DNA of 40,005 nucleotides. Source: Pontiellaceae bacterium B1224 (GTDB taxonomy: Bacteria > Verrucomicrobiota > Kiritimatiellia > Kiritimatiellales > Pontiellaceae). Within the stretch, counting starts at the first letter, position 1, and each line of letters starts with the position of its first letter. This document shows, in pieces, positions 1,944 to 12,987 of this stretch. The position numbers and the translations under genes were made by a program. Under the pieces are notes generated by a model, which saw only the letters and a program-made list of their open reading frames with translations, was not told where the DNA came from and made no database searches. The stretch covers positions 1 to 40,005 of the forward strand of contig JAROBA010000044.1 of assembly GCA_029432815.1 (NCBI GenBank). The letters run 5' to 3'.

Positions 1944-2609
1944 ATGAGTATTAAAAAAACGATGTTGTCGTCGATCGGTCAAAAGTTGCTGTTGGCGACA
2001 TCCGGCCTGATCATGTTCCTGTTGTTTCTGATTCCGCACATGGGCGGCAATGTGCTGTTTCTGTTCGGACCGGATATTTTTAACTCCTATGCGTACCATC
2101 TGCATCAGCTGGTTCCGGTCGTCATCGGCATTGAACTGCTGATGCTTACCTCGATTACGATTCATATGATTATGGCGTTTCGGGTGGTGCTGGCGAACCG
2201 CAAGGCGGCAGATAAGCGCCACACGCTGAAATCGTCGAAAGAGCGCTCGCTGGCGGCCAAGCTGATGCCGGTGTCAGGCATCATGATTTTTATCTTTATC
2301 GTAAAGCACCTGCTCGATTTTAAATTCTATGAAAAGACCGAGATCATCAGCGAGCATGGCGACCACATGTATAATGTTTATGCCATGGTACTGGAGCGCT
2401 TTCAGGGCGACCCCGTTCATCTGGCCTTTTATGTGCTCTTTATGGTTGCCGTCGGTTTCCACCTCAGCCATGCCCTGCAGAGCTCACTTCAGACCTACGG
2501 GATCTACGTTCCGCGCGATGGCAGCAAAATTAAGCTGGTCAGTGCCATTGTCGGTTGGGGCATGGCCGCAACCTTCGCGATCATTCCGATCTTCGCCTTC
2601 ATCATATAA
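1944..2609 (+). CDS. sdhC: Succinate dehydrogenase/fumarate reductase cytochrome b subunit
   Basis: The 221-aa membrane anchor belongs to the b558-type SdhC family, a single polypeptide with five predicted membrane helices (about residues 13-33, 55-78, 108-125, 150-172 and 197-220) that replaces the separate C and D subunits. It would hold heme and exchange electrons with (mena)quinone. Candidate heme-ligand histidines lie in or near the helices (HMGG near 32, HLHQ near 50, IH near 71, KH near 113, HLSH near 170). It is first in the sdhC-sdhA-sdhB order typical of this enzyme type. The ribosome binding site is weak (GTAGGGAATT). Whether the complex runs as succinate oxidase or fumarate reductase in vivo cannot be decided; an anaerobe with ferredoxin-linked enzymes could use either direction. 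Confidence 0.92.
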   Translation: MSIKKTMLSSIGQKLLLATSGLIMFLLFLIPHMGGNVLFLFGPDIFNSYAYHLHQLVPVVIGIELLMLTSITIHMIMAFRVVLANRKAADKRHTLKSSKERSLAAKLMPVSGIMIFIFIVKHLLDFKFYEKTEIISEHGDHMYNVYAMVLERFQGDPVHLAFYVLFMVAVGFHLSHALQSSLQTYGIYVPRDGSKIKLVSAIVGWGMAATFAIIPIFAFII

Positions 2610-2654
2610 CCGGGTTAACTCAAGATGTTCATAGCAACAGAACCTCAGCAATCA

Positions 2655-2723
2655 AATAAACACGAAGGCACTAAGATCACGAAGCTTGGTGTTTTTTGTG
2701 CCTTGAGCGCAGCGGGTGTTAAT
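2655..2723. repeat. Intercistronic hairpin repeat, AAACACGAAGGCAC family (sdhC-sdhA)
   Basis: The left half ATAAACACGAAGGCACTAAG (2656-2675) is mirrored imperfectly by a right half with GTGCCTT and GGTGTT (2698-2720), so the transcript can fold into a long imperfect hairpin. Near-identical units lie between sdhA and sdhB and between sucC and sucD. Lying inside an operon, it is unlikely to be a strong terminator. Confidence 0.7.
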
Positions 2724-2740
2724 TTTTCAAGGAAAGAGAT

Positions 2741-4654
2741 ATGAAACTCGACGCAAAAATTCCTGAAGGCCCGATGGCCGAAAAGTGGACGAACCACAAA
2801 TTCAAAGTAAAGCTGGTCAACCCTTCCAACAAGCGGAAGCACAAGGTAATCATTGTCGGCAGCGGCCTGGCCGGTGCCTCGGCTGCGGCCACGATGTCGG
2901 AGCTGGGCTATCAGGTCCACTGCTTCACCTATTCCGACTCCCCGCGCCGTGCACACTCGATTGCCGCGCAGGGCGGGATCAACGCTGCCAAAAACTATCC
3001 GAACGACGGCGACTCCATTTACCGCCTCTTTTATGACACCGTGAAGGGCGGCGACTTCCGTTCCCGCGAGGCCAATGTGCACCGCCTGGCGGAATGCTCG
3101 AACCAGATTATCGACCACTGCGTGGCGCAGGGCATACCGTTCGCCCGCGAGTACGGCGGCTACCTCGATAACCGTTCATTCGGTGGTGCGCAGGTTTCAC
3201 GTACCTTTTATGCCCGCGGTCAGACCGGCCAGCAGTTGCTGCTCGGTGCCTACGGTGCGCTGTCGAAGGAGATTAAAAAGGGCGGGGTCACGATGTATAC
3301 CCGCGAAGAGGTCATTGATGTCGTGGTGATCGACGGCCAGGCACGCGGCATTATTTCGCGCAACCTCGTCACCGGCGAACTGAGCCGCCACGAAGCCGAT
3401 GCCGTTGTGCTGGCCACCGGAGGCTACGGCAACGTCTTTTTCCTTTCCACCAACGCGATGAACTGCAATGCAAGTGCCGCCTGGCGTGCCTACAAAAAGG
3501 GTGCCGCTTTTGCCAATCCGTGCTACACGCAGATTCACCCGACCTGCATTCCGGTGCATGGCGAATATCAGTCCAAGCTGACGCTGATGTCGGAGTCGCT
3601 GCGTAATGATGGCCGTATCTGGGTGCCGAAAGCCAAGGGCGACAAGCGTCCGGCCAACCAGATTCCGGAAGACGAGCGTGACTACTATCTGGAACGCAAA
3701 TATCCAAGCTTTGGAAATCTGGTTCCGCGCGACCTCGCTTCCCGCAATGCCAAAATGGTGTGCGACGAAGGCCGCGGCGTCGGCCCGACCGGCAACGCCG
3801 TTTATCTCGACTTTGCCGAAGCCATTGAGCGCCTCGGTAAGGACGCGATTGTTGCCAAGTATGGAAACCTGTTTGAAATGTATAACCGTATTACCGATGA
3901 AGATCCGTATACGACGCCGATGATGATTTTCCCGGCGGTGCACTACACGATGGGCGGTCTTTGGGTGGACTATAACCTCATGACTTCTTTGCCGGGCCTT
4001 TATGCGATCGGCGAATGCAACTTTTCGGATCACGGCGCGAACCGCCTGGGTGCTTCCGCATTGATGCAGGGACTGGCCGATGGCTACTTTGTGATCCCGA
4101 ATACGATTAACGACTACCTCGCCTCCAATAAACTTCCAAAGGTTGGAACCGACCACGAAGCATTTGCCGAAGCGGAGAAAGCGGCGCAGGATAAACTCGA
4201 TAAACTGCTCGCCGTGAACGGTAAGCGGACTGTGGATGATTTCCACAAAGAGCTCGGTCATCTACTTTGGGAAAACTGTGGTATGGGCCGCAATGAAAAG
4301 GGGCTGAAAGAAGCCCTCGAAAAGATTCCAAAAATCCGCGAGGAATTCTGGAAAGACGTCAATGTTCCGGGCTCGGCCGATGACTTGAATCAGGCATTGG
4401 AAAAAGCGAACCGCGTCGCCGACTTTATGGAATTCGCTGAGCTGATGGTGAAGGATGCACTGATGCGGGCGGAATCCTGTGGGGGCCATTTCCGCGAAGA
4501 GAGCCAGACGGATGAGGGTGAAGCCCTGCGTAACGATGACGAATTCTGCTTCGTGGGCGCGTGGGAGTTTGCGGGATTGGATAAAGAACCGATCCTTCAC
4601 AAGGAACATTTGGAATTCGAAGAGGTTCACTTAACACAGAGGTCCTATAAATAG
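2741..4654 (+). CDS. sdhA: Succinate dehydrogenase/fumarate reductase flavoprotein subunit
   Basis: The 637-aa catalytic subunit interconverts succinate and fumarate with covalently bound FAD. The N-terminal dinucleotide-binding motif is [11 protein letters not shown] at about residues 41-51. The FAD-linking histidine is predicted at H72 in [13 protein letters not shown]. The substrate region shows [10 protein letters not shown] at about 268-277, and the catalytic arginine is in GANRLGAS (R435). Length and motif order match the family that pairs with a single cytochrome b subunit. The ATG at 2741 follows GGAAAGAG; an ATG eleven codons inside is less likely. It lies between sdhC and sdhB, separated from each by the same hairpin repeat. 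Two degenerate copies of the TTCCAA palindrome (3702 and 4134) lie within the gene. Confidence 0.96.
4134..4148. repeat. TTCCAANNNTTGGAA palindrome inside sdhA
   Basis: An exact copy with spacer AGG, read in the sdhA frame as L-P-K-V-G. It is the only exact copy within the central-carbon cluster; one-mismatch copies occur at 3702, 7844 and 11277. Confidence 0.85.
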
Positions 4655-4723
4655 CAATAAACACAAAGGCACTAAGAACACGGAGGCTTCGTGCTCTTCG
4701 AGCCTTAAGTGAAGCGGGTGTTT
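4655..4723. repeat. Intercistronic hairpin repeat, AAACACGAAGGCAC family (sdhA-sdhB)
   Basis: The left half AATAAACACAAAGGCACTAA (4657-4676) is followed by ACACGGAGG, and the right half contains CTTCGTGCTCTTCG and GCGGGTGTTTAA. This is the same architecture as the sdhC-sdhA copy, with an almost identical tail (AGCGGGTGTT). Confidence 0.7.
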
Positions 4724-4749
4724 AAAATTTGTTGTAAGGAAGGCATGTC

Positions 4750-5508
4750 ATGGCAAAACAGATTAATTTAACGCTGAAGGTTTGGCGGCAGAACCGGGGT
4801 CAGGAAGGTAAGTTCGAGACGTATGAGGCAAAGAACATTGATACCGATGCTTCGTTCCTCGAAATGCTGGATGTGGTGAACGACGAGCTGACGCTGAAGG
4901 GCATTGAGCCGATTGCATTCGAGCACGACTGCCGCGAAGGCATCTGCGGATGCTGCGGTTCCACGGTGAACGGAAAGACCCACGGCTCGCACGAACGCAC
5001 AACACTTTGCCAACTGCACATGCGCCATTTTGAAGATGGACAGAATGTGGTGATTGAACCGTTCCGCGCCACCGCTTTCCCGGTGATTAAGGATTTGATT
5101 GTTGATCGCTCCGGTCTTGATCAAATCATTGCTGAAGGCGGCTATGTTTCGGTGAAAACCGGTAACGCGCCGGAAGCATCGACGACTCCGATTAAAAAGG
5201 AGATGGCTGAAGCGGCGATGGATGCGGCGGAATGTATCGGATGCGGCGCCTGTGTGGCGGCCTGCCCGAACGGATCGGCTATGCTGTTCACCTCGGCCAA
5301 GGTTTCCCAGTATGCTCTGTTGCCGCAGGGCCATCCGGAACGGGCCCAACGCGTAAAGAATATGGTTGGAAAAATGGACGAGCTCGGCTTTGGCAACTGC
5401 TCGAATGAATATGAGTGCGCGGTCGCCTGCCCGAAAGGGATTGATGTGAAAAATATTGCGCGCCTCAACCGAGAGTTTATTAAGGCCAGTCTGACGAGTG
5501 AAAAGTGA
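4750..5508 (+). CDS. sdhB: Succinate dehydrogenase/fumarate reductase iron-sulfur subunit
   Basis: The 252-aa electron-transfer subunit links the SdhA flavin to the SdhC heme/quinone site. The N-terminal ferredoxin domain carries the [2Fe-2S] ligands in [11 protein letters not shown] (about residues 58-68) plus a later cysteine in TTLCQLH. The C-terminal domain carries [12 protein letters not shown] (about 157-168) and a second cluster of cysteines in [14 protein letters not shown] (about 217-230), for the [4Fe-4S] and [3Fe-4S] centres. The second motif has the C-x5-C-x3-C-P spacing expected for this family. The start is supported by AAGGAAG shortly upstream. The stop codon overlaps the left arm of an inverted repeat. 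Confidence 0.96.
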
Positions 5509-5554
5509 GGCGTGAAGATTAGCTGAATCTCAGGGCTCAATCGTCACGCATCAC
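5505..5554. repeat. Hairpin repeat overlapping the sdhB stop codon
   Basis: Arms GTGAGGCGTGA (5505-5515) and TCACGCATCAC (5544-5554) pair at 10 of 11 positions. The left arm includes the sdhB TGA stop and the right arm ends just before the GGAGGAA ribosome binding site of the next gene. It is a different repeat family from the AAACACGAAGGCAC units. Confidence 0.55.
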
Positions 5555-5569
5555 GCAGGAGGAACACCC

Positions 5570-6046
5570 ATGGCAGCAGCAAGAAAGAAGCAAACATTCT
5601 GGTCTGAGCCAATCGGCAAGGTCGATCTCCAGCGTGTTGCTGTTGTTCCTTCCGGCACCACGATCGTCGATGCCGTTAAAGAGATGAAATACAACCAGAT
5701 CGGCTGTGTGCTGGTGGAAGATGCCAAACAGGAACTGATCGGCATTCTGAGCAATGGGGATCTGATGCACGAATATGTTGGCTCCACCCTGCCCGGGGAT
5801 ACGGCCGTGGACATCATCATGACAAAAAATCCCTTTACCGGATCGCCCGAGCTGACCGTGCAGGAAGCTCTGGAGATTTTTCACTCCAACCCATTCCGCC
5901 ATATGCCGATCCTCAATGACGGCAGGGTGCAGGGTATTCTTTCGATCCGCGGGCTGATGACGTTTATCAGCGAACACCTCCCGCTGGAGGTCATGAACCT
6001 TCCGCCGGACAGCAGTCTTATTCCGTCCAGAACGTCAGGAGAATAA
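5570..6046 (+). CDS. Stand-alone CBS-domain pair protein
   Basis: This 158-aa cytosolic protein consists almost entirely of two CBS domains (about residues 12-70 and 80-140), which form a Bateman module that usually binds AMP, ATP or another adenosyl ligand. Typical CBS features are VDAVKEMKYNQIGCVLVED followed by LIGILSNGDLM, and VQEALEIFHSNPFRHMPIL followed by VQGILSIRGLM. It lacks any catalytic domain. It sits three bases before korA, and korB in the same operon carries its own fused CBS pair, so a role sensing energy charge for the 2-oxoacid oxidoreductase is a reasonable inference. A strong GGAGGAA site precedes the ATG. Confidence 0.85.
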   Translation: MAAARKKQTFWSEPIGKVDLQRVAVVPSGTTIVDAVKEMKYNQIGCVLVEDAKQELIGILSNGDLMHEYVGSTLPGDTAVDIIMTKNPFTGSPELTVQEALEIFHSNPFRHMPILNDGRVQGILSIRGLMTFISEHLPLEVMNLPPDSSLIPSRTSGE

Positions 6047-6049
6047 ATC

Positions 6050-7888
6050 ATGGCTGAAGAACTTCAAACGCTGATGGAAAAAGACTCGGTCGTAGTACGT
6101 TTTGCGGGCGACTCCGGTGACGGTATGCAGACCGTCGGCGAACTGTTTGCCGATGCCAGCGCACTGCTGGGCGATGCCATTGTAACCTTTCCGGATTTCC
6201 CTTCCGAGATCCGTGCGCCGGCGGGCTCGCTGCCCGGCGTGTCCGGTTTTCAAGTTCATTTCGGTGCCGCCAATGTCATGACGCCCGGCGATAAAGCCGA
6301 TGCGCTGGTCGTGATGAACCCTGCTGCGCTGAAGGTCAATCTGCGTGAACTGGAGCCGAAAGGGCTGTTGATTATCAACACCGGTTCATTTACTCCGGCC
6401 AATCTGAAAAAAGCCCTCTACGAAACCAATCCGCTCGATGATCCGGCGCTCGATGAAGAGTTTCGCGTTATCAAGGTGGACATCAATGCCCTGACTAACG
6501 AAGCGCTGAAAGAGATGCCGCTCAAGCCGGCCCTCCGGGCGCGCTGCAAAAACTTCTTTGCGCTGGGCATCACCTACTGGGTGTATTCACGTCCGCTTGA
6601 TTTGACGCTGGAATGGATCGAAACCAAGTGGCGCGACCGGTTGCCGCTGATGGCCGATGCCAACAGTCTCGCCCTGAAAACCGGTTATATTGTCGGTGAA
6701 AACAAGGATATCGATATTCCGCAATATACCGTGCACAAGCGCATGCTTGAGGACGGCGTCTATCGCAAGATTACCGGCAACGAAGCAACGGCGCTCGGCC
6801 TGATTGCCGCTGCGGAAAACAGCTGGCGCGACCTCGTACTGGGCAGCTATCCCATCACACCGGCCACCCCGATTCTTGAAACACTTTCCAAACATCGGAA
6901 CTTTAACGTCAAAACCGTGCAGGCCGAAGACGAGATTGCCGCCATCGGTGTGGCAATCGGCGCGTCCTTTGCCGGTGCGCTGGCCGTAACTACCACTAGC
7001 GGTCCCGGTCTTTGTCTTAAGTCGGAAGCTCTCGGGCTGGCGGTCATCACGGAGCTGCCGCTGGTGGTGATCAATGTCCAGCGCGCAGGGCCCAGCACCG
7101 GGCTGCCCACCAAGACCGAGCAGGCCGATCTGCTGCAAACGCTGTATGGACGCAACGGTGAATCGCCCGTGGCGGTCCTTGCGGCCGACTCGCCTGGGGA
7201 CTGTTTCGACTGCGCGATCGAGGCATCCCGTCTGGCGCTGAAATTTCGCACGCCGGTTGTGATGCTGACCGATACCTATCTGGCCAACGGTTCCGAACCC
7301 TGGAAAATTCCGTCGGTGACAGATATTCCTGATATTTCTGTGGAGCCAATTCGGCAGGGCGAGGAATATGTGCCCTACAAGCGCGACCCCAAAACGCTGG
7401 CGCGCCGTCTGGCCGTACCGGGCCGTCCGGGGTTTGAACACCGCATCGGCGGGCTGGAAAAAACCGAGTCGGGGCAGGTGAGTTACGATGCTGAAAACCA
7501 TGAAAAGATGTGCCGGCTTCGTGCGGATAAAGTGAAAGGCATTGCAAACGATATTCCGCTGCCTGCTTTGCTGGGCGCACCTACAGGTAGGTTGCTGGTG
7601 ATCGGTTGGGGCAGCACCTACGGTTCCATCAGAATGGCCGTCGAACGCATGCAGTCCGCCGGTGAAGCCGTCAGCTTCATCCATCTTCGACACCTGAATC
7701 CATTACCGCACGGTCTCGGCGAACTGATGAAGCAGTTCGACACCGTGGTGGTACCCGAACTGAATCTCGGGCATCTTTCGCTGGTTCTCCGCGCTGAATT
7801 TCTGGTCGATGTCAAATCGATAAATAAGGTGCAGGGACGCATGTTCCAAATCTCGGAACTCGTGGATGCATTCAGGGAATACCTTTAA
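6050..7888 (+). CDS. korA: 2-oxoglutarate:ferredoxin oxidoreductase, fused gamma-alpha subunit
   Basis: The 612-aa protein, with KorB, interconverts 2-oxoglutarate plus CoA and succinyl-CoA plus CO2 using ferredoxin. The gamma domain is N-terminal (about residues 10-190, starting FAGDSGDGMQTVGE), and the pyrimidine-binding alpha domain follows from about 235 (GNEATALGLIAAA, then SYPITPATPILE and QAEDEIAAIGVAIGAS). The C-terminal transketolase-like domain starts near 510 (VIGWGSTYGSI). This fused gamma-alpha layout of about 610 residues is the usual KorA form. The neighbours sucCD and sdhCAB favour 2-oxoglutarate over pyruvate as substrate, but the sequence alone does not prove it. The start is supported by AGGAGA at 6039-6044. 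Confidence 0.92.
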   Translation: MAEELQTLMEKDSVVVRFAGDSGDGMQTVGELFADASALLGDAIVTFPDFPSEIRAPAGSLPGVSGFQVHFGAANVMTPGDKADALVVMNPAALKVNLRELEPKGLLIINTGSFTPANLKKALYETNPLDDPALDEEFRVIKVDINALTNEALKEMPLKPALRARCKNFFALGITYWVYSRPLDLTLEWIETKWRDRLPLMADANSLALKTGYIVGENKDIDIPQYTVHKRMLEDGVYRKITGNEATALGLIAAAENSWRDLVLGSYPITPATPILETLSKHRNFNVKTVQAEDEIAAIGVAIGASFAGALAVTTTSGPGLCLKSEALGLAVITELPLVVINVQRAGPSTGLPTKTEQADLLQTLYGRNGESPVAVLAADSPGDCFDCAIEASRLALKFRTPVVMLTDTYLANGSEPWKIPSVTDIPDISVEPIRQGEEYVPYKRDPKTLARRLAVPGRPGFEHRIGGLEKTESGQVSYDAENHEKMCRLRADKVKGIANDIPLPALLGAPTGRLLVIGWGSTYGSIRMAVERMQSAGEAVSFIHLRHLNPLPHGLGELMKQFDTVVVPELNLGHLSLVLRAEFLVDVKSINKVQGRMFQISELVDAFREYL

Positions 7889-7900
7889 CGGGAGCATGTG

Positions 7901-9463
7901 ATGGATGGCTTAAAAGAATATCTGACCCGTAAAGATTTTGTCTCCTCCTCCGAGGTGCGCTGGTGCCCCGGCTGTGGCGACTACGCCGTACTGAACTCTG
8001 TTCAGACCGTGCTTCCGCAGCTTGGAATTCCGAAAGAAAAATTTGTTTTTGTCAGCGGTATCGGTTGCTCCAGTCGTTTTCCGTATTACATGGATACGTT
8101 CGGCTTTCACTCGATCCACGGGCGCGCACCGACCATTGCCACCGGCATCAAGGTTGCCAACCCCGAGCTTTCGGTCTGGGTGATTACCGGCGACGGTGAT
8201 GGGCTGAGTATTGGCGGCAACCATTTGGTTCATGCCCTGCGTCGCAATCTGGACATGAATATCATCCTGCTGAACAACCGCATCTACGGTTTGACCAAAG
8301 GACAGTACAGCCCGACTTCGGTGAAGGGGCAGATTACCAAAACCAGTCCGTATGGCGTGATTGACGAACCGATCAATCCATTGCGTATTGCGCTGGCTTC
8401 CGAAGCAACCTTTATCGCCCGTGCGCTCGATACCGATCCCAAGCATATGAGCGAGGTACTCAAGGCAGGAGCGGAGCATCACGGTACGTCATTTGTGGAA
8501 ATTCTGCAGAGCTGCGTGATTTTTAATAAAAAAGCGTGGAGCGAGATTTCCGACCGCTCAACCCGCGAAAACCGCCTGCTCTATCTTGAGCAGGGCAAGC
8601 CGCTGATCTTCGGTGAAAAACGCAACAAAGGTATTGTGTTGCGCGGCACCGATCCGGTTGTTGTTACCATCGGCGAGCAGGGCATCACGAAAAAGGATCT
8701 GGTGAAACACGATATGTACCGGGAAGATCCGGTCTATGCATCGATGCTGGTTATGATGGACTCGCCTGATTTTCCGCTTCCGGTGGGGGTTTTTCATGCT
8801 GTTAAAAAACCGGTTTACGAGGATGAGCTGGATGCGCAGATCAAGGAAGTGACCGCGCTGAAAGGTCGCCGTAATCTACAGGCGCTGCTGCGTGGTTCCG
8901 AATACTGGACGGTTTCGAATAACGGTGCATCGATCAAGCGTTCTACGGGTATCAGGACTCTGGATAATGATGAGTCGAACATTATGGACGAACAGATCCA
9001 TGCGTTGCTGAAATCCACCGATCCGCTTACCGCCAGCCTGAAAACCACGGTTGGAAAGATCTTCTACGACTACGATTACAAACGCTCGAAAATGCTCTCG
9101 CCGCGCGACAGCATTGCGTCGGCAATTGCTCATTTCAAGGCGGCGCATATCGAGTGCATTCTCGTAGGCGATTCGAAGCGGCTGTACGGCATTCTGTCGG
9201 AGCGCGACATTATTCAGAATGTGGTGCTCACCTCCATCGACCGCGACCGCCAGCCGATCTCGGCGATCATGCGGCCGGTCTATGAAATTATGGACGAGTC
9301 GAACTCCATTGGAGATGTCATCAACATTCTATCCATCAGCGGACATCGGCATGTACCGCTCCGGTTGAAGGACGGCGGTTTCGGATTGGTCACCATCCGC
9401 CAGATACTACGCTTTATTCACGACACGGTTGAACAGGTTGAAAAAAAGGAAATGGAAGAATAA
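7901..9463 (+). CDS. korB: 2-oxoglutarate:ferredoxin oxidoreductase beta subunit with C-terminal CBS pair
   Basis: This is the thiamine-diphosphate and [4Fe-4S] subunit of the KorAB enzyme, 520 aa. The beta domain (about residues 1-345) shows cluster cysteines in WCPGCGDY (C22, C25) and GIGCSSR, plus a later cysteine in QSCVIFN. The ThDP motif begins GDGDGLSIGG and continues to LLNNRIYGLTKGQ. Ordinary KorB proteins end near residue 340. Here a linker and two CBS domains follow (about 388-445 and 456-508), with ILVGDSKRLYGILSERDI and SGHRHVPLRL as recognisable segments. The fusion implies nucleotide-responsive control. The ATG at 7901 is preferred to the adjacent GTG at 7898 because GGGAG lies six bases before it. 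The stop is immediately followed by the sucC start (TAAATG). Confidence 0.92.
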   Translation: MDGLKEYLTRKDFVSSSEVRWCPGCGDYAVLNSVQTVLPQLGIPKEKFVFVSGIGCSSRFPYYMDTFGFHSIHGRAPTIATGIKVANPELSVWVITGDGDGLSIGGNHLVHALRRNLDMNIILLNNRIYGLTKGQYSPTSVKGQITKTSPYGVIDEPINPLRIALASEATFIARALDTDPKHMSEVLKAGAEHHGTSFVEILQSCVIFNKKAWSEISDRSTRENRLLYLEQGKPLIFGEKRNKGIVLRGTDPVVVTIGEQGITKKDLVKHDMYREDPVYASMLVMMDSPDFPLPVGVFHAVKKPVYEDELDAQIKEVTALKGRRNLQALLRGSEYWTVSNNGASIKRSTGIRTLDNDESNIMDEQIHALLKSTDPLTASLKTTVGKIFYDYDYKRSKMLSPRDSIASAIAHFKAAHIECILVGDSKRLYGILSERDIIQNVVLTSIDRDRQPISAIMRPVYEIMDESNSIGDVINILSISGHRHVPLRLKDGGFGLVTIRQILRFIHDTVEQVEKKEMEE

Positions 9464-10642
9464 ATGAAAATACATGAATACCAAGCCAAGGAACTTTTGA
9501 AGGGCTACGGCATTCCGATTCAGGATGGCGTAACCATCGAGGACCTGGCAGAGGCCGAAGCGGCCATTGATAAGGTAAGCAAAGAACTTGGCGCCGAACA
9601 ATTTGTCATCAAAGCTCAGATTCACGCGGGTGGTCGCGGTAAAGGCGGCGGTGTCAAGTTTTCGACGAGCCGCGGGAAAGCGCTTGAGAACCTGAAGGAT
9701 ATTCTGGGCATGACGCTCATCACGCATCAAACCGGTCCGGAAGGCCGGTTGGTTAAAAAAGTGATGGTGGCGGAAGCGCTCGACATTAAGCAGGAGTTTT
9801 ACGCAGCCATCACCCTCGACCGCGCTAAGGGCATGGATACATTCATGGTTTCGTCCGAAGGCGGGATGGAAATTGAAGAGGTCGCTAAAAACTCGCCGGA
9901 AAAAATTGTGAAGGAAGCGATTGTGCCGGGGTTTGGACTGCGTCCGTTTCAGGCGCGAAATCTGGCTCAGGCGCTGGGGCTTGAAGGGCAGACAGCGAAG
10001 CAGGCGATCGGCATGTTTCAGAAGCTGTATAAACTCTATCGCGAACTCGACTGCTCCATCGTGGAGATCAACCCGCTGATCGTGACTGAACAGGGCGATC
10101 TGGTGGCTCTGGATGCCAAGATTAACTTTGATGACAACGCGCTCTACCTGCACAAGGATGTTGAGGCCATGCGTGACCTCGACGAAGAGGATCCTGCGGA
10201 AGTCGATGCTGCCGAGTTCAACCTTAACTACATTAAGCTCGATGGCAATGTCGGCTGCATGGTGAATGGAGCTGGACTGGCGATGGCCACGATGGACATC
10301 ATTAAACAGCGCGGCGGTTCACCGGCCAACTTCCTGGATGTGGGTGGCGGGGCCAATGTGGAAACCGTGAAGAACGGATTCCGCATCATTCTTTCCGACC
10401 CGAATGTGAAGGCGGTACTCATTAATATCTTCGGCGGGATCGTTCGATGCGACCGGATTGCCAATGGGATTATTGAAGCGGTGAAGGTGCTCGATCTGAA
10501 CGTGCCGGTGGTGGTGCGTCTGGCGGGCACAAATGCGGAGGTTGCCAAGGAACTGCTGGCGAACTCGGATGTGGATCTCATTTCCGCGGACTCTTTCGAG
10601 GATGCCGCAGTCAAGGTTGTGGAAGCCGCTAAGGGAAATTAA
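9464..10642 (+). CDS. sucC: Succinyl-CoA synthetase (ADP-forming) beta subunit
   Basis: The 392-aa subunit carries the nucleotide-binding ATP-grasp fold (about residues 1-220, beginning MKIHEYQAKELLKGYG and with KAQIHAGGRGKGGGVK near 50) and the CoA-ligase domain (about 250-385, with GNVGCMVNGAGLAMATMD and the later NIFGGIVRCD). With SucD it converts succinyl-CoA to succinate with substrate-level ATP formation, directly downstream of the KorAB reaction. The start codon follows the korB stop without a gap, suggesting translational coupling. The TAA stop is also the first bases of an AAACACGAAGGCAC-type repeat. Confidence 0.96.
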   Translation: MKIHEYQAKELLKGYGIPIQDGVTIEDLAEAEAAIDKVSKELGAEQFVIKAQIHAGGRGKGGGVKFSTSRGKALENLKDILGMTLITHQTGPEGRLVKKVMVAEALDIKQEFYAAITLDRAKGMDTFMVSSEGGMEIEEVAKNSPEKIVKEAIVPGFGLRPFQARNLAQALGLEGQTAKQAIGMFQKLYKLYRELDCSIVEINPLIVTEQGDLVALDAKINFDDNALYLHKDVEAMRDLDEEDPAEVDAAEFNLNYIKLDGNVGCMVNGAGLAMATMDIIKQRGGSPANFLDVGGGANVETVKNGFRIILSDPNVKAVLINIFGGIVRCDRIANGIIEAVKVLDLNVPVVVRLAGTNAEVAKELLANSDVDLISADSFEDAAVKVVEAAKGN

Positions 10643-10713
10643 ACACGAAGGCACTAAGAGCACGAAGCTCTGCAGAGCTGAACTTGGAGAACTTCGTGCC
10701 GTTGTGTTTAAAA
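10641..10713. repeat. Intercistronic hairpin repeat, AAACACGAAGGCAC family (sucC-sucD)
   Basis: The left half AAACACGAAGGCACTAAG (10641-10658) pairs with CTTCGTGCCGTTGTGTTT (10692-10709). An inner self-complementary GCTCTGCAGAGC (10667-10678) adds a nested stem. It is the best-paired of the three copies, and it includes the sucC stop codon at its left edge. Confidence 0.75.
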
Positions 10714-10729
10714 AATACAGGATGTAGTT

Positions 10730-11629
10730 ATGGCGATTTTAGTAGATAAGAACTCGAAGATCATTGTGCAGGGCATCACCGGTTCCGAGGGCACATTCCA
10801 CGCGACCCAATGTCTGGAATACGGTGGGAATGTCGTGGGAGGCGTGACGCCCGGCAAGGGCGGGCAGACCGCGCTGGAAGGCAAAGTGCCGGTGTTCAAC
10901 AGCTGTGCGGAAGCCCGAAAGGCAGTGCATGCAAACGTATCCCTGATTTTTGTACCACCGCCTTTTGCGGCGGACGCAATCATGGAGGCGGCTGCTGCAG
11001 GAATTGAACTGATCGTCTGCATCACGGAAGGAATTCCGGTGGCGCAGATGGTTGAAGTGAAGGCGTTTGTTGATAAAACCGGTTCGCGTTTTGTCGGCCC
11101 GAACTGCCCGGGCGTTTTGACGCCGGAAGGCGCGAAGGTCGGAATCATGCCTGGCTTTATTGCCAAAAAGGGCACCGTGGGCGTGATCTCGAAATCGGGT
11201 ACGTTGACCTACGAAGCGGTCCATCAGCTTGGTTCGGAAGGGCTGGGCCAATCAACCTGCATCGGGATTGGTGGAGATCCAATCATTGGAACCACTATGA
11301 AAGACCTGCTGGAAATGTTTGAGCACGACGATGAAACCGAGGCGATTGTTATGATAGGTGAAATCGGCGGTTCCATGGAAATTGAAGCAGCGCAGTATGC
11401 CAAGGCCAATGTTAGTAAACCGGTGATTGGTTTCATTGCCGGGCAAACCGCCCCGCCGGGGCGTCGTATGGGCCATGCCGGAGCTATTGTTTCGGGGGCC
11501 GACGAATCGGCTGCCGCAAAGAAGAAGCTGATGGCGGAATGCGGCATTCATGTCGTTGAGTCGCCGGCGGATATTGGACGGGCCGTGAAGGAATCTTTAA
11601 ATAAAATAGAAATTGGAGTCGAATCATGA
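10730..11629 (+). CDS. sucD: Succinyl-CoA synthetase alpha subunit
   Basis: The 299-aa subunit holds the CoA-binding Rossmann domain ([13 protein letters not shown] at about residues 13-25; NCPGVLTPE at about 125) and the ligase domain. The phosphorylated histidine is H249 in [13 protein letters not shown], matching the family position. [11 protein letters not shown] is also present. It pairs with SucC. Its last four bases overlap the first four of gltA (ATGA), so the two are probably translationally coupled. Confidence 0.96.
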
Positions 11630-12912
11630 GTGATAAAGCAACTCTGGAGTATAAAGATAAAAAAATTGAACTGGAAGCAGTTATAGGGTCAGAAGGAGAA
11701 GTCGGCCTGGATATTACTGCACTGCGCGGTGCAACCGGAATGATCACGTTGGATCCGGGCTATGGCAACACCGGTTCATGCACCTCCGACATCACATTCA
11801 TTAACGGTGAAAAAGGGATTTTGCGGCATCGTGGTTATGCAATCGAAGATCTGGCGGCGGAATCGTCCTTCATGGAAACCGCCTATCTCGTGCTGTATGG
11901 CGAGCTTCCGAGCTCAAATGAACTGAGTGCGTTTGAAGCCGAGATCAAAAGCGAAGCAACCTTGCATTATGGGATGAAGAGCCACTTCGAAGGTTTTCCG
12001 GATAACGCACCGCCCATGGCTGTTCTTTCCGCCATGCTCAATCTGCTCGCCTGCTACAATACGGAGTTGTTGACGACCGCCACGGAGGGGCCGGCCTTCA
12101 CGGCTCCGACCGCGAAGATTATTTCGAAGGTGCGTGCAATTGCCGCCTGGGCCTATCGCACCTCGATCGGCAAGCCGTTCATGCCGCCGCGCCCGGATCT
12201 GAGCTACAGCGGAAACTTTCTGCATATGATGTTCTCGGAAACGTTCGACCTCTATGAACCGATTCCGGAAGTGGAGCGTGCGCTGGATCTGTTCTTCATT
12301 CTGCATGCGGATCACGAGCAGAACTGCTCCACCTCCACCGTGCGCATGGTCGGCAGCTCGCACGCAAGCCTGTTCAGCGCGGTTTCGGCTGGCGTCGGAG
12401 CGCTGTGGGGGCCGCTGCATGGCGGTGCCAACTGCGAAGTGATCAAGATGCTCACCCACATCCATGAGGACGGCATCAAGCCGCACGACTTTGTTGAAAA
12501 AGCGAAAGACAAAAACTCGCCTGAAAAACTGATGGGTTTCGGCCATCGCGTATATAAGAGCTTTGATCCGCGCGCCAAGATCCTCAAGGGTCAGGTCGAC
12601 AATGTGTTAAAAGCGCTGAAGATTGAAGATCCCTTATTGGACATTGCCTACGAATTGGAAGAGATGGCTCGGTCCGAGGAATATTTCATCGAACGGAACC
12701 TTTACCCGAACGTCGATTTCTACAGCGGTATCCTGCTGCGTGCCATCGGCATTCCTGTGAATATGTTCACCGTGCTGTTTGCCATCGGACGTATGCCGGG
12801 TTGGATTGCCAACTGGCGTGAAATGCACGAGCAAAGCCTGCGTATCAGCCGTCCGCGCCAGATCTACACCGGCGCAACATTGCGTGATTACGCGCCGATG
12901 ACAGAACGATAA
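11626..12912 (+). CDS. gltA: Citrate synthase (type II)
   Basis: The 428-aa enzyme condenses oxaloacetate and acetyl-CoA to citrate. The three catalytic residues are visible and nearly at the E. coli positions: H265 in [12 protein letters not shown]307 in [14 protein letters not shown] and D364 in NVDFYSGI. The N-terminal extension of about 50 residues ([18 protein letters not shown]) is typical of the large hexameric, NADH-sensitive type. It is the last gene of the cluster and is followed by a hairpin and T-run. The presence of gltA together with KorAB fits an anaerobic oxidative or bifurcated cycle, with aconitase and isocitrate dehydrogenase encoded elsewhere. Confidence 0.96.
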
Positions 12913-12932: not shown

Positions 12933-12987
12933 AAAGAGCGCAAAGGAGCGGGGTTGATTGATCTCGCAAACTTTGCGCTCTTTTTTT
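12933..12987 (+). terminator. Terminator of the TCA cluster, also a dispersed repeat
   Basis: Arms AAAGAGCGCAAAG (12933-12945) and CTTTGCGCTCTTT (12971-12983) are perfect reverse complements and the right arm runs into seven T (12981-12987). The loop of 25 bases is long. A sister element with the same arm core lies after typA at 27043-27087, so this is one of a family of GCAAAGAGCGCAAAG hairpins. Confidence 0.7.

Follow-up and report, generated by a model that had tools for sequence, protein, structure and literature searches.

A KorAB enzyme with a fused and a free CBS module

In Pontiellaceae bacterium B1224 the KorB subunit of a 2-oxoacid:ferredoxin oxidoreductase (KorAB) is extended at its C-terminus by a pair of CBS domains, and a second, free CBS-pair protein is encoded immediately upstream of korA. 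The three genes occupy positions 5570-9463 of the window, by which we mean the whole 40,005-nucleotide stretch of DNA that was analyzed (JAROBA010000044.1, positions 1-40,005); position numbers refer to this window, and all features described in it lie on the forward strand (+). The free CBS gene (5570-6046, 158 amino acids) ends three bases before korA (6050-7888), which is separated by nine bases from korB (7898-9463, 521 amino acids). A preliminary description of this DNA had reported the three-base spacing and had read korB past its usual end near residue 345 into two CBS domains. Its coordinates proved to be exact and the extension was confirmed, the first CBS domain (CBS1) being recognized by Pfam and the second (CBS2) being indicated by alignment and conservation.

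The fused and the free proteins occur together. When all 346 genomes of the class to which this organism belongs were searched, full-length fused KorB was found in 15, comprising 13 Pontiella, the type strain of Pontiella sulfatireligans among the set, and two genera of another family. An orthologue of the free CBS protein is present in 14 of these 15 genomes and in none of the remaining 331; in the lone exception (G012) the contig ends inside korA. The pairing is kept in the other family, at a KorB identity of 48%, where the three genes are followed by sucCD and gltA and no sdh genes were seen upstream. These data support the conclusion that within the class the free CBS protein is dedicated to the fused KorB as its partner. 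Generic CBS matches in other Verrucomicrobiota, at 1e-20 to 1e-27, were found to be ordinary stand-alone CBS proteins rather than orthologues.

Ordinary KorB proteins, as had been stated in the preliminary description, have no CBS domain. The core ends near residue 340-345, and CBS-less relatives match residues 9-340 only. The core is present in 168 of 247 Bacteroidota genomes, and all of the matches listed there end at about residue 317-354, none of them reaching the CBS part. No CBS gene was found beside unfused KorAB (KorB of about 345 residues) at eight Verrucomicrobiota and five Bacteroidota loci, the upstream sequence being missing for one record (L092). A wide distribution of the fusion in KorB is thus rejected for Bacteroidota and for the other Verrucomicrobiota sampled, further phyla having been searched less than exhaustively. 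The preliminary description would have taken a widespread, catalytically silent fusion as refuting its reading; this is not borne out, since the fusion is narrowly distributed and, as described below, strongly conserved.

The catalytic part of the enzyme has the features expected of its family. KorA is a gamma-alpha fused subunit, with a POR (gamma) domain at 87.4 bits and a POR_N (alpha) domain at 187.6 bits, and it scores 631.8 bits against TIGR03710 (cut-off 482.75). The KorB core (residues 1-345, 7898-8932) exceeds the TIGR02177 cut-off narrowly, with 263.3 bits against 261.9. Cys23, Cys26, Cys57 and Cys206, which are the expected ligands of one 4Fe-4S cluster, are invariant in an alignment of 14 fused KorB proteins, as is the thiamine-diphosphate motif GDGDG..NN. 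Because the family cut-offs are exceeded and these residues are invariant, nothing suggests that KorAB is a dead enzyme, and its catalytic core appears intact. To judge by the sucCD and sdh genes of the operon, 2-oxoglutarate is the most likely substrate; succinyl-CoA would be the acyl-CoA and ferredoxin the electron carrier.

A second KorAB, of another subfamily and without CBS domains, is encoded in the same genome (contig C141, L057 6195-9101) and in most members of the genus; it is 38% identical to the enzyme described here over residues 10-214. Also encoded in the genome are two separate POR_N proteins, each in an open frame of about 1200 amino acids, which may serve pyruvate.

The extension of KorB consists of a linker (residues 346-385, 8933-9052) and the CBS module (residues 386-521, 9053-9463), in which the CBS pair itself spans residues 386 to about 515. 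Pfam calls CBS1 alone (residues 399-441, 39.1 bits, cut-off 24). CBS2 falls below Pfam detection; two-CBS proteins of known structure (2rc3) align across residues 400-505, and the second half is kept, with a G-h-h-T/S motif, in all 14 orthologues. The AlphaFold model of KorB has a mean predicted local distance difference test score (pLDDT) of 57.5, which is too poor for a fold search; its CBS part has CBS secondary structure with block pLDDT values mostly of 57-90, and the remainder is poor. The ratio of nonsynonymous to synonymous substitution rates (dN/dS) was computed against seven relatives, and the values are rough because some pairs approach saturation at synonymous sites. The fused CBS module (0.03-0.06) gave the same range as the KorB core (0.03-0.06), with 0.09-0.32 for the fast-evolving linker and 0.06-0.13 for the free CBS protein. 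By this measure purifying selection acts on the fused module as strongly as on the catalytic core.

Each module keeps one of two ribose-binding motifs

The free protein is recognized by Pfam as two CBS domains (75.8 bits, cut-off 24). Its model has a mean pLDDT of 79.8 and in a fold search reached Z scores of up to 16.6 against CBS pairs. The nearest structures are 2rc3, 4fry and 3fhm, which contain bound NAD(H) or AMP; a literature search returned no papers on these three PDB entries.

In CBS proteins the motif G-h-h-S/T-x-x-D/N binds ribose and phosphate (PMC11172384, PMC6429129), and in AcuB the corresponding Asp residues are Asp53 and Asp123 (PMC13121692). The free protein keeps this motif in CBS1 (G58-ILSNG-D64), and its CBS2 motif, GILSIRG, is without the Asp. 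The same holds for the KorB module, with G431-ILSER-D437 in CBS1 and GLVTIRQ in CBS2. A motif alignment shows the pattern to be general, the CBS1 Asp being kept and the CBS2 Asp lost in 14 of 14 fused and 13 of 13 free proteins; among these 27 sequences a single one has Ala in place of Ser in the CBS1 motif. At the Asp position of CBS2 the free proteins have Gly or Val and the fused ones Gln or Glu. Both Asp residues are present in 20 generic CBS pairs, stand-alone proteins of this phylum that were included in the alignment. So, judged by these motifs, each partner protein appears to have one canonical adenosine site (S1), and the other (S2) seems to have been given up in both. The half-site pattern is common to the two families that carry the genes and is older than their divergence. 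There is a precedent for such a stoichiometry in the CBS pyrophosphatase, which binds one nucleotide per CBS pair (PMC11172384).

The free protein ends in a conserved C-terminal tail, LPLEVMNLPPDSSL, whose consensus LPxxVxNLPPDSSL hardly varies within or between the two families and which is likely to be a docking peptide. The confidence of the structural model is low beyond residue 147. The pattern [FL]PxxVxNLPP was examined as a possible mark of a wider family and was rejected as such, since among the loci compared at that point it was confined to the free CBS orthologues.

The fused and free modules group together in a tree (93/92), on long branches; the fused module may have been derived by duplication of the free gene.

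The three genes are lost as a unit

Pontiella is among the nearest named relatives of the window genome, beside other Kiritimatiellales, and seven Pontiella genomes (L181, L183-L188) have the order sdhCAB-sucCD-gltA, with no free CBS gene, korA or korB between sdhB and sucC. At these empty sites sdhB and sucC are separated by 3 to 106 bases. One further genome (G023, contig C290) has at the same place a 74-residue open frame (L189 3870-4091), in which residues 1-37 of the free CBS protein are joined to approximately the last 46 residues of KorB; by its sequence this frame is a deletion scar. Mapped on a quick tree of six flanking operon proteins, made without bootstrap, the presence and absence of the genes require at least five changes, of which three are forced by well-supported branches. 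The genome that is sister to the window genome (G016) is among those without the three genes. Because all three are gone from the empty sites, and because of the scar, the free CBS gene, korA and korB are to be regarded as a cassette that has been lost repeatedly as one unit.

Proposed regulation of KorAB and its alternatives

We consider it probable on balance, if by no means secure, that KorAB is gated by a nucleotide and that the free CBS protein is an obligate partner in this gating; the ligand, the allosteric effect and its sign, the mixed assembly and the substrate are what we infer in proposing it. The genes at 5570-9463 would then encode one enzyme with two nucleotide sensors. KorAB would interconvert a 2-oxoacid, most likely 2-oxoglutarate, and an acyl-CoA, most likely succinyl-CoA, with ferredoxin. 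The regulatory module would be made up of the KorB CBS pair and the free CBS protein, seated on the complex; its most likely form is a mixed disc of four CBS domains, the docking of which may be aided by the tail of the free protein. An adenine nucleotide bound at each S1 site would shift the disc, and the shift would change KorAB activity by way of the linker at residues 346-385. As to sign, we would guess, and hold the guess weakly, that AMP or ADP acts as a brake and that ATP or Ap4A releases it, as in the CBS pyrophosphatase. The fully specified form of this proposal is one that we put forward tentatively and would not expect to hold in every part: the free CBS protein would be a stoichiometric third subunit of KorAB, forming the four-CBS disc with the KorB tail, with one nucleotide site contributed by each partner, and the disc would gate the link between 2-oxoglutarate and succinyl-CoA in response to energy or redox state.

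Given a fused sensing module and a constant second sensor protein, the KorAB step is probably switched by the energy or redox state of the cell in these marine anaerobic Pontiella. Members of the genus are strict fermenters, whose products are acetate with ethanol and lactate, or succinate, acetate and malate (PMC10880615, PMC7356697). Such products would allow either direction of the KorAB step, and a brake of the kind proposed would suit the reductive direction, which costs ATP through SucCD.

The preliminary description had suggested that flux through the ferredoxin-linked step is tuned by energy charge, possibly with the free CBS protein paired to the fused module. This suggestion is supported in part: the absence of the domain from ordinary KorB, the exclusive pairing of the two proteins, the S1 motif present in both modules and the core-like purifying selection speak for it. 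The half-site pattern, the behavior of the three genes as a cassette and the CBS genes beside other KorAB operons go beyond that description.

Several considerations weigh against nucleotide gating with an obligate partner. CBS pairs can serve assembly alone, and the second CBS domain of KorB has no clear Pfam match. The fused and the free proteins are each a single lineage, and their co-occurrence therefore amounts to one origin followed by repeated joint losses. Joint loss supports a partnership without proving it, because one deletion removes neighboring genes whatever their function. Finally, many Pontiella live without the cassette, which is therefore not essential.

One alternative, which we regard as unlikely and nonetheless worth serious attention, is that the CBS modules are assembly parts without a regulating ligand, which join KorAB heterodimers to one another or tether the enzyme to a metabolon with SucCD or citrate synthase. 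The loss of half of the canonical sites in both modules would fit such a role, as would the position of sucCD and gltA directly after the fused genes and the resemblance of the conserved tail of the free protein to a docking peptide. However, apart from the one change of Ser to Ala, none of the 27 sequences departs from the S1 motif, a degree of conservation beyond the needs of a mere scaffold, and sucCD and gltA persist in operons that have no cassette.

If nucleotide-like ligands are bound, the identity of the ligand may differ from that proposed. The module might read the redox or stress state through NAD(H), S-adenosylmethionine, Ap4A or another adenosyl compound, and we consider this rather improbable, though of some weight. 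The CBS motif accepts adenosyl compounds generally, the closest structural matches of the free protein contain NAD(H) or AMP, and an enzyme linked to ferredoxin would lend itself naturally to redox control. No residue-level evidence favors NAD(H), however, and the ligands of the well-studied CBS regulators considered here are AMP, ADP, ATP or Ap4A (PMC13121692, PMC11172384).

A quite improbable alternative is that only the fused module acts on KorAB and that the free CBS protein regulates something else, such as succinate dehydrogenase, succinyl-CoA ligase or a regulator. Its gene does lie between sdhB and korA, and CBS proteins elsewhere act on unlinked targets. Yet the free CBS gene is absent wherever the CBS-bearing KorAB is absent, though sdh, suc and gltA remain, which argues that the protein serves KorAB and not those enzymes, and in the other family it is present with no sdh upstream. 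That the fusion and its CBS neighbor are an assembly artefact, a chance product or a decaying insertion is scarcely credible and was rejected: nothing but the rarity of the architecture speaks for it, and 15 genomes, a type strain included, carry the fusion at full length, down to 48% identity and under purifying selection.

Nucleotide gating of KorAB, if true, would provide a direct handle on how anaerobes control the 2-oxoglutarate/succinyl-CoA step, which links the two branches of the citric-acid cycle. Strains for comparison already exist in nature, since the cassette has been lost several times from an operon that is otherwise unchanged, and the pattern of one site per module in two partners would allow the division of ligand binding within a CBS assembly to be tested.

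Comparison with known systems

In the literature searched, subscription literature lying outside its scope, we found no 2-oxoacid:ferredoxin oxidoreductase, or relative of one, with CBS domains. Each of the parts is of a known kind, and their combination is new as far as this could be tested. Two-subunit KorAB enzymes of the TIGR03710/TIGR02177 type, with the long KorB found in Bacteroidota, have the same gamma-alpha fusion in KorA; their KorB is 50-59% identical to that of the window up to about residue 345 and shares its Cys ligands and thiamine-diphosphate motif. The window KorB differs from these in its linker and CBS pair, and in the second CBS-pair protein encoded alongside. The family II CBS pyrophosphatase is likewise an enzyme with a built-in CBS pair that takes one nucleotide (PMC11172384), but it is an unrelated enzyme, its pair lies within the chain rather than at the C-terminus, and it has no separate CBS partner. 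AcuB of Bacillus and Geobacillus resembles the free protein in being a free CBS pair encoded in an operon, and it senses energy charge and controls a step in central carbon metabolism (PMC13121692). However, AcuB carries an ACT domain at its C-terminus, keeps the ribose Asp in both CBS domains and has a deacetylase, AcuC, as its target. The free protein of the window ends about 20 residues after CBS2 and matches Pfam CBS only; the ACT domain and the second Asp are both missing from it.

Fourteen plasmid KorAB loci were read with their flanks, as a spread rather than an exhaustive set. In Variovorax sp. PDNC026 a korB that belongs to a different subfamily is followed after 49 bases by a CBS-pair gene (L191 7938-9473), and two V. 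paradoxus records have a similar arrangement, the three records representing one lineage. Aromatoleum aromaticum EbN1 plasmid 2 has genes for a CBS protein, a flavin adenine dinucleotide (FAD) oxidoreductase, KorA and KorB in one run (L193 788-5993). As in the window, a separate CBS-pair gene thus stands in or beside the korAB operon; unlike the window enzyme, these KorAB proteins belong to a distant subfamily (27-38% identity over the matched parts) and show no fusion, and their CBS proteins are without the tail, those of Variovorax keeping both Asp residues. A Variovorax plasmid match that seemed to cover both KorB and CBS proved to be two neighboring genes. An independent pairing of CBS and KorAB genes in another phylum makes CBS regulation of this class of enzyme more likely. 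A more remote CBS frame was seen at a KorAB locus of Gemmatirosa, and on a plasmid of Azospirillum ramasamyi a CBS protein adjoins a gene of the histone-deacetylase family (L205 5019-6476), an arrangement that recalls AcuB and AcuC.

The surrounding operon

The cassette lies within a run of nine genes in the same direction, from 1944 to 12912, in the order sdhC-sdhA-sdhB-free CBS-korA-korB-sucC-sucD-gltA. The first gene, sdhC/frdC (1944-2609), encodes a cytochrome b558-type membrane subunit (TIGR02046, 139.5 bits, cut-off 96) and is followed by those for the flavoprotein, sdhA/frdA (2741-4654; PRK07573, 1184.7 bits, cut-off 866), and the iron-sulfur subunit, sdhB/frdB (4750-5508; PRK07570, 404.4 bits, cut-off 243), the last of which forms the left border of the cassette. 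At the right border sucC, for the beta subunit of succinyl-CoA ligase (9464-10642; PRK00696, 549.6 bits, cut-off 370), begins immediately behind the korB stop codon, with no base between them. It is followed by sucD for the alpha subunit (10730-11629; PRK05678, 437.2 bits, cut-off 336) and by the citrate synthase gene gltA (11626-12912; PRK05614, 571.9 bits, cut-off 505). A possible intrinsic terminator, with a stem at 12965-12977 and then a T run (12965-12984), follows gltA; it is a pattern match only, and such matches are no commoner in this region than in shuffled sequence.

The window lies on contig C143 of this genome, which measures 5.4 Mb. Elsewhere in the same genome there are an aconitase, two proteins of the Iso_dh family and a second citrate synthase (contig C11, 95831-97141), which is 51% identical to the product of the operon gltA. 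A second citrate synthase of similar kind is present in most of the genus members searched.

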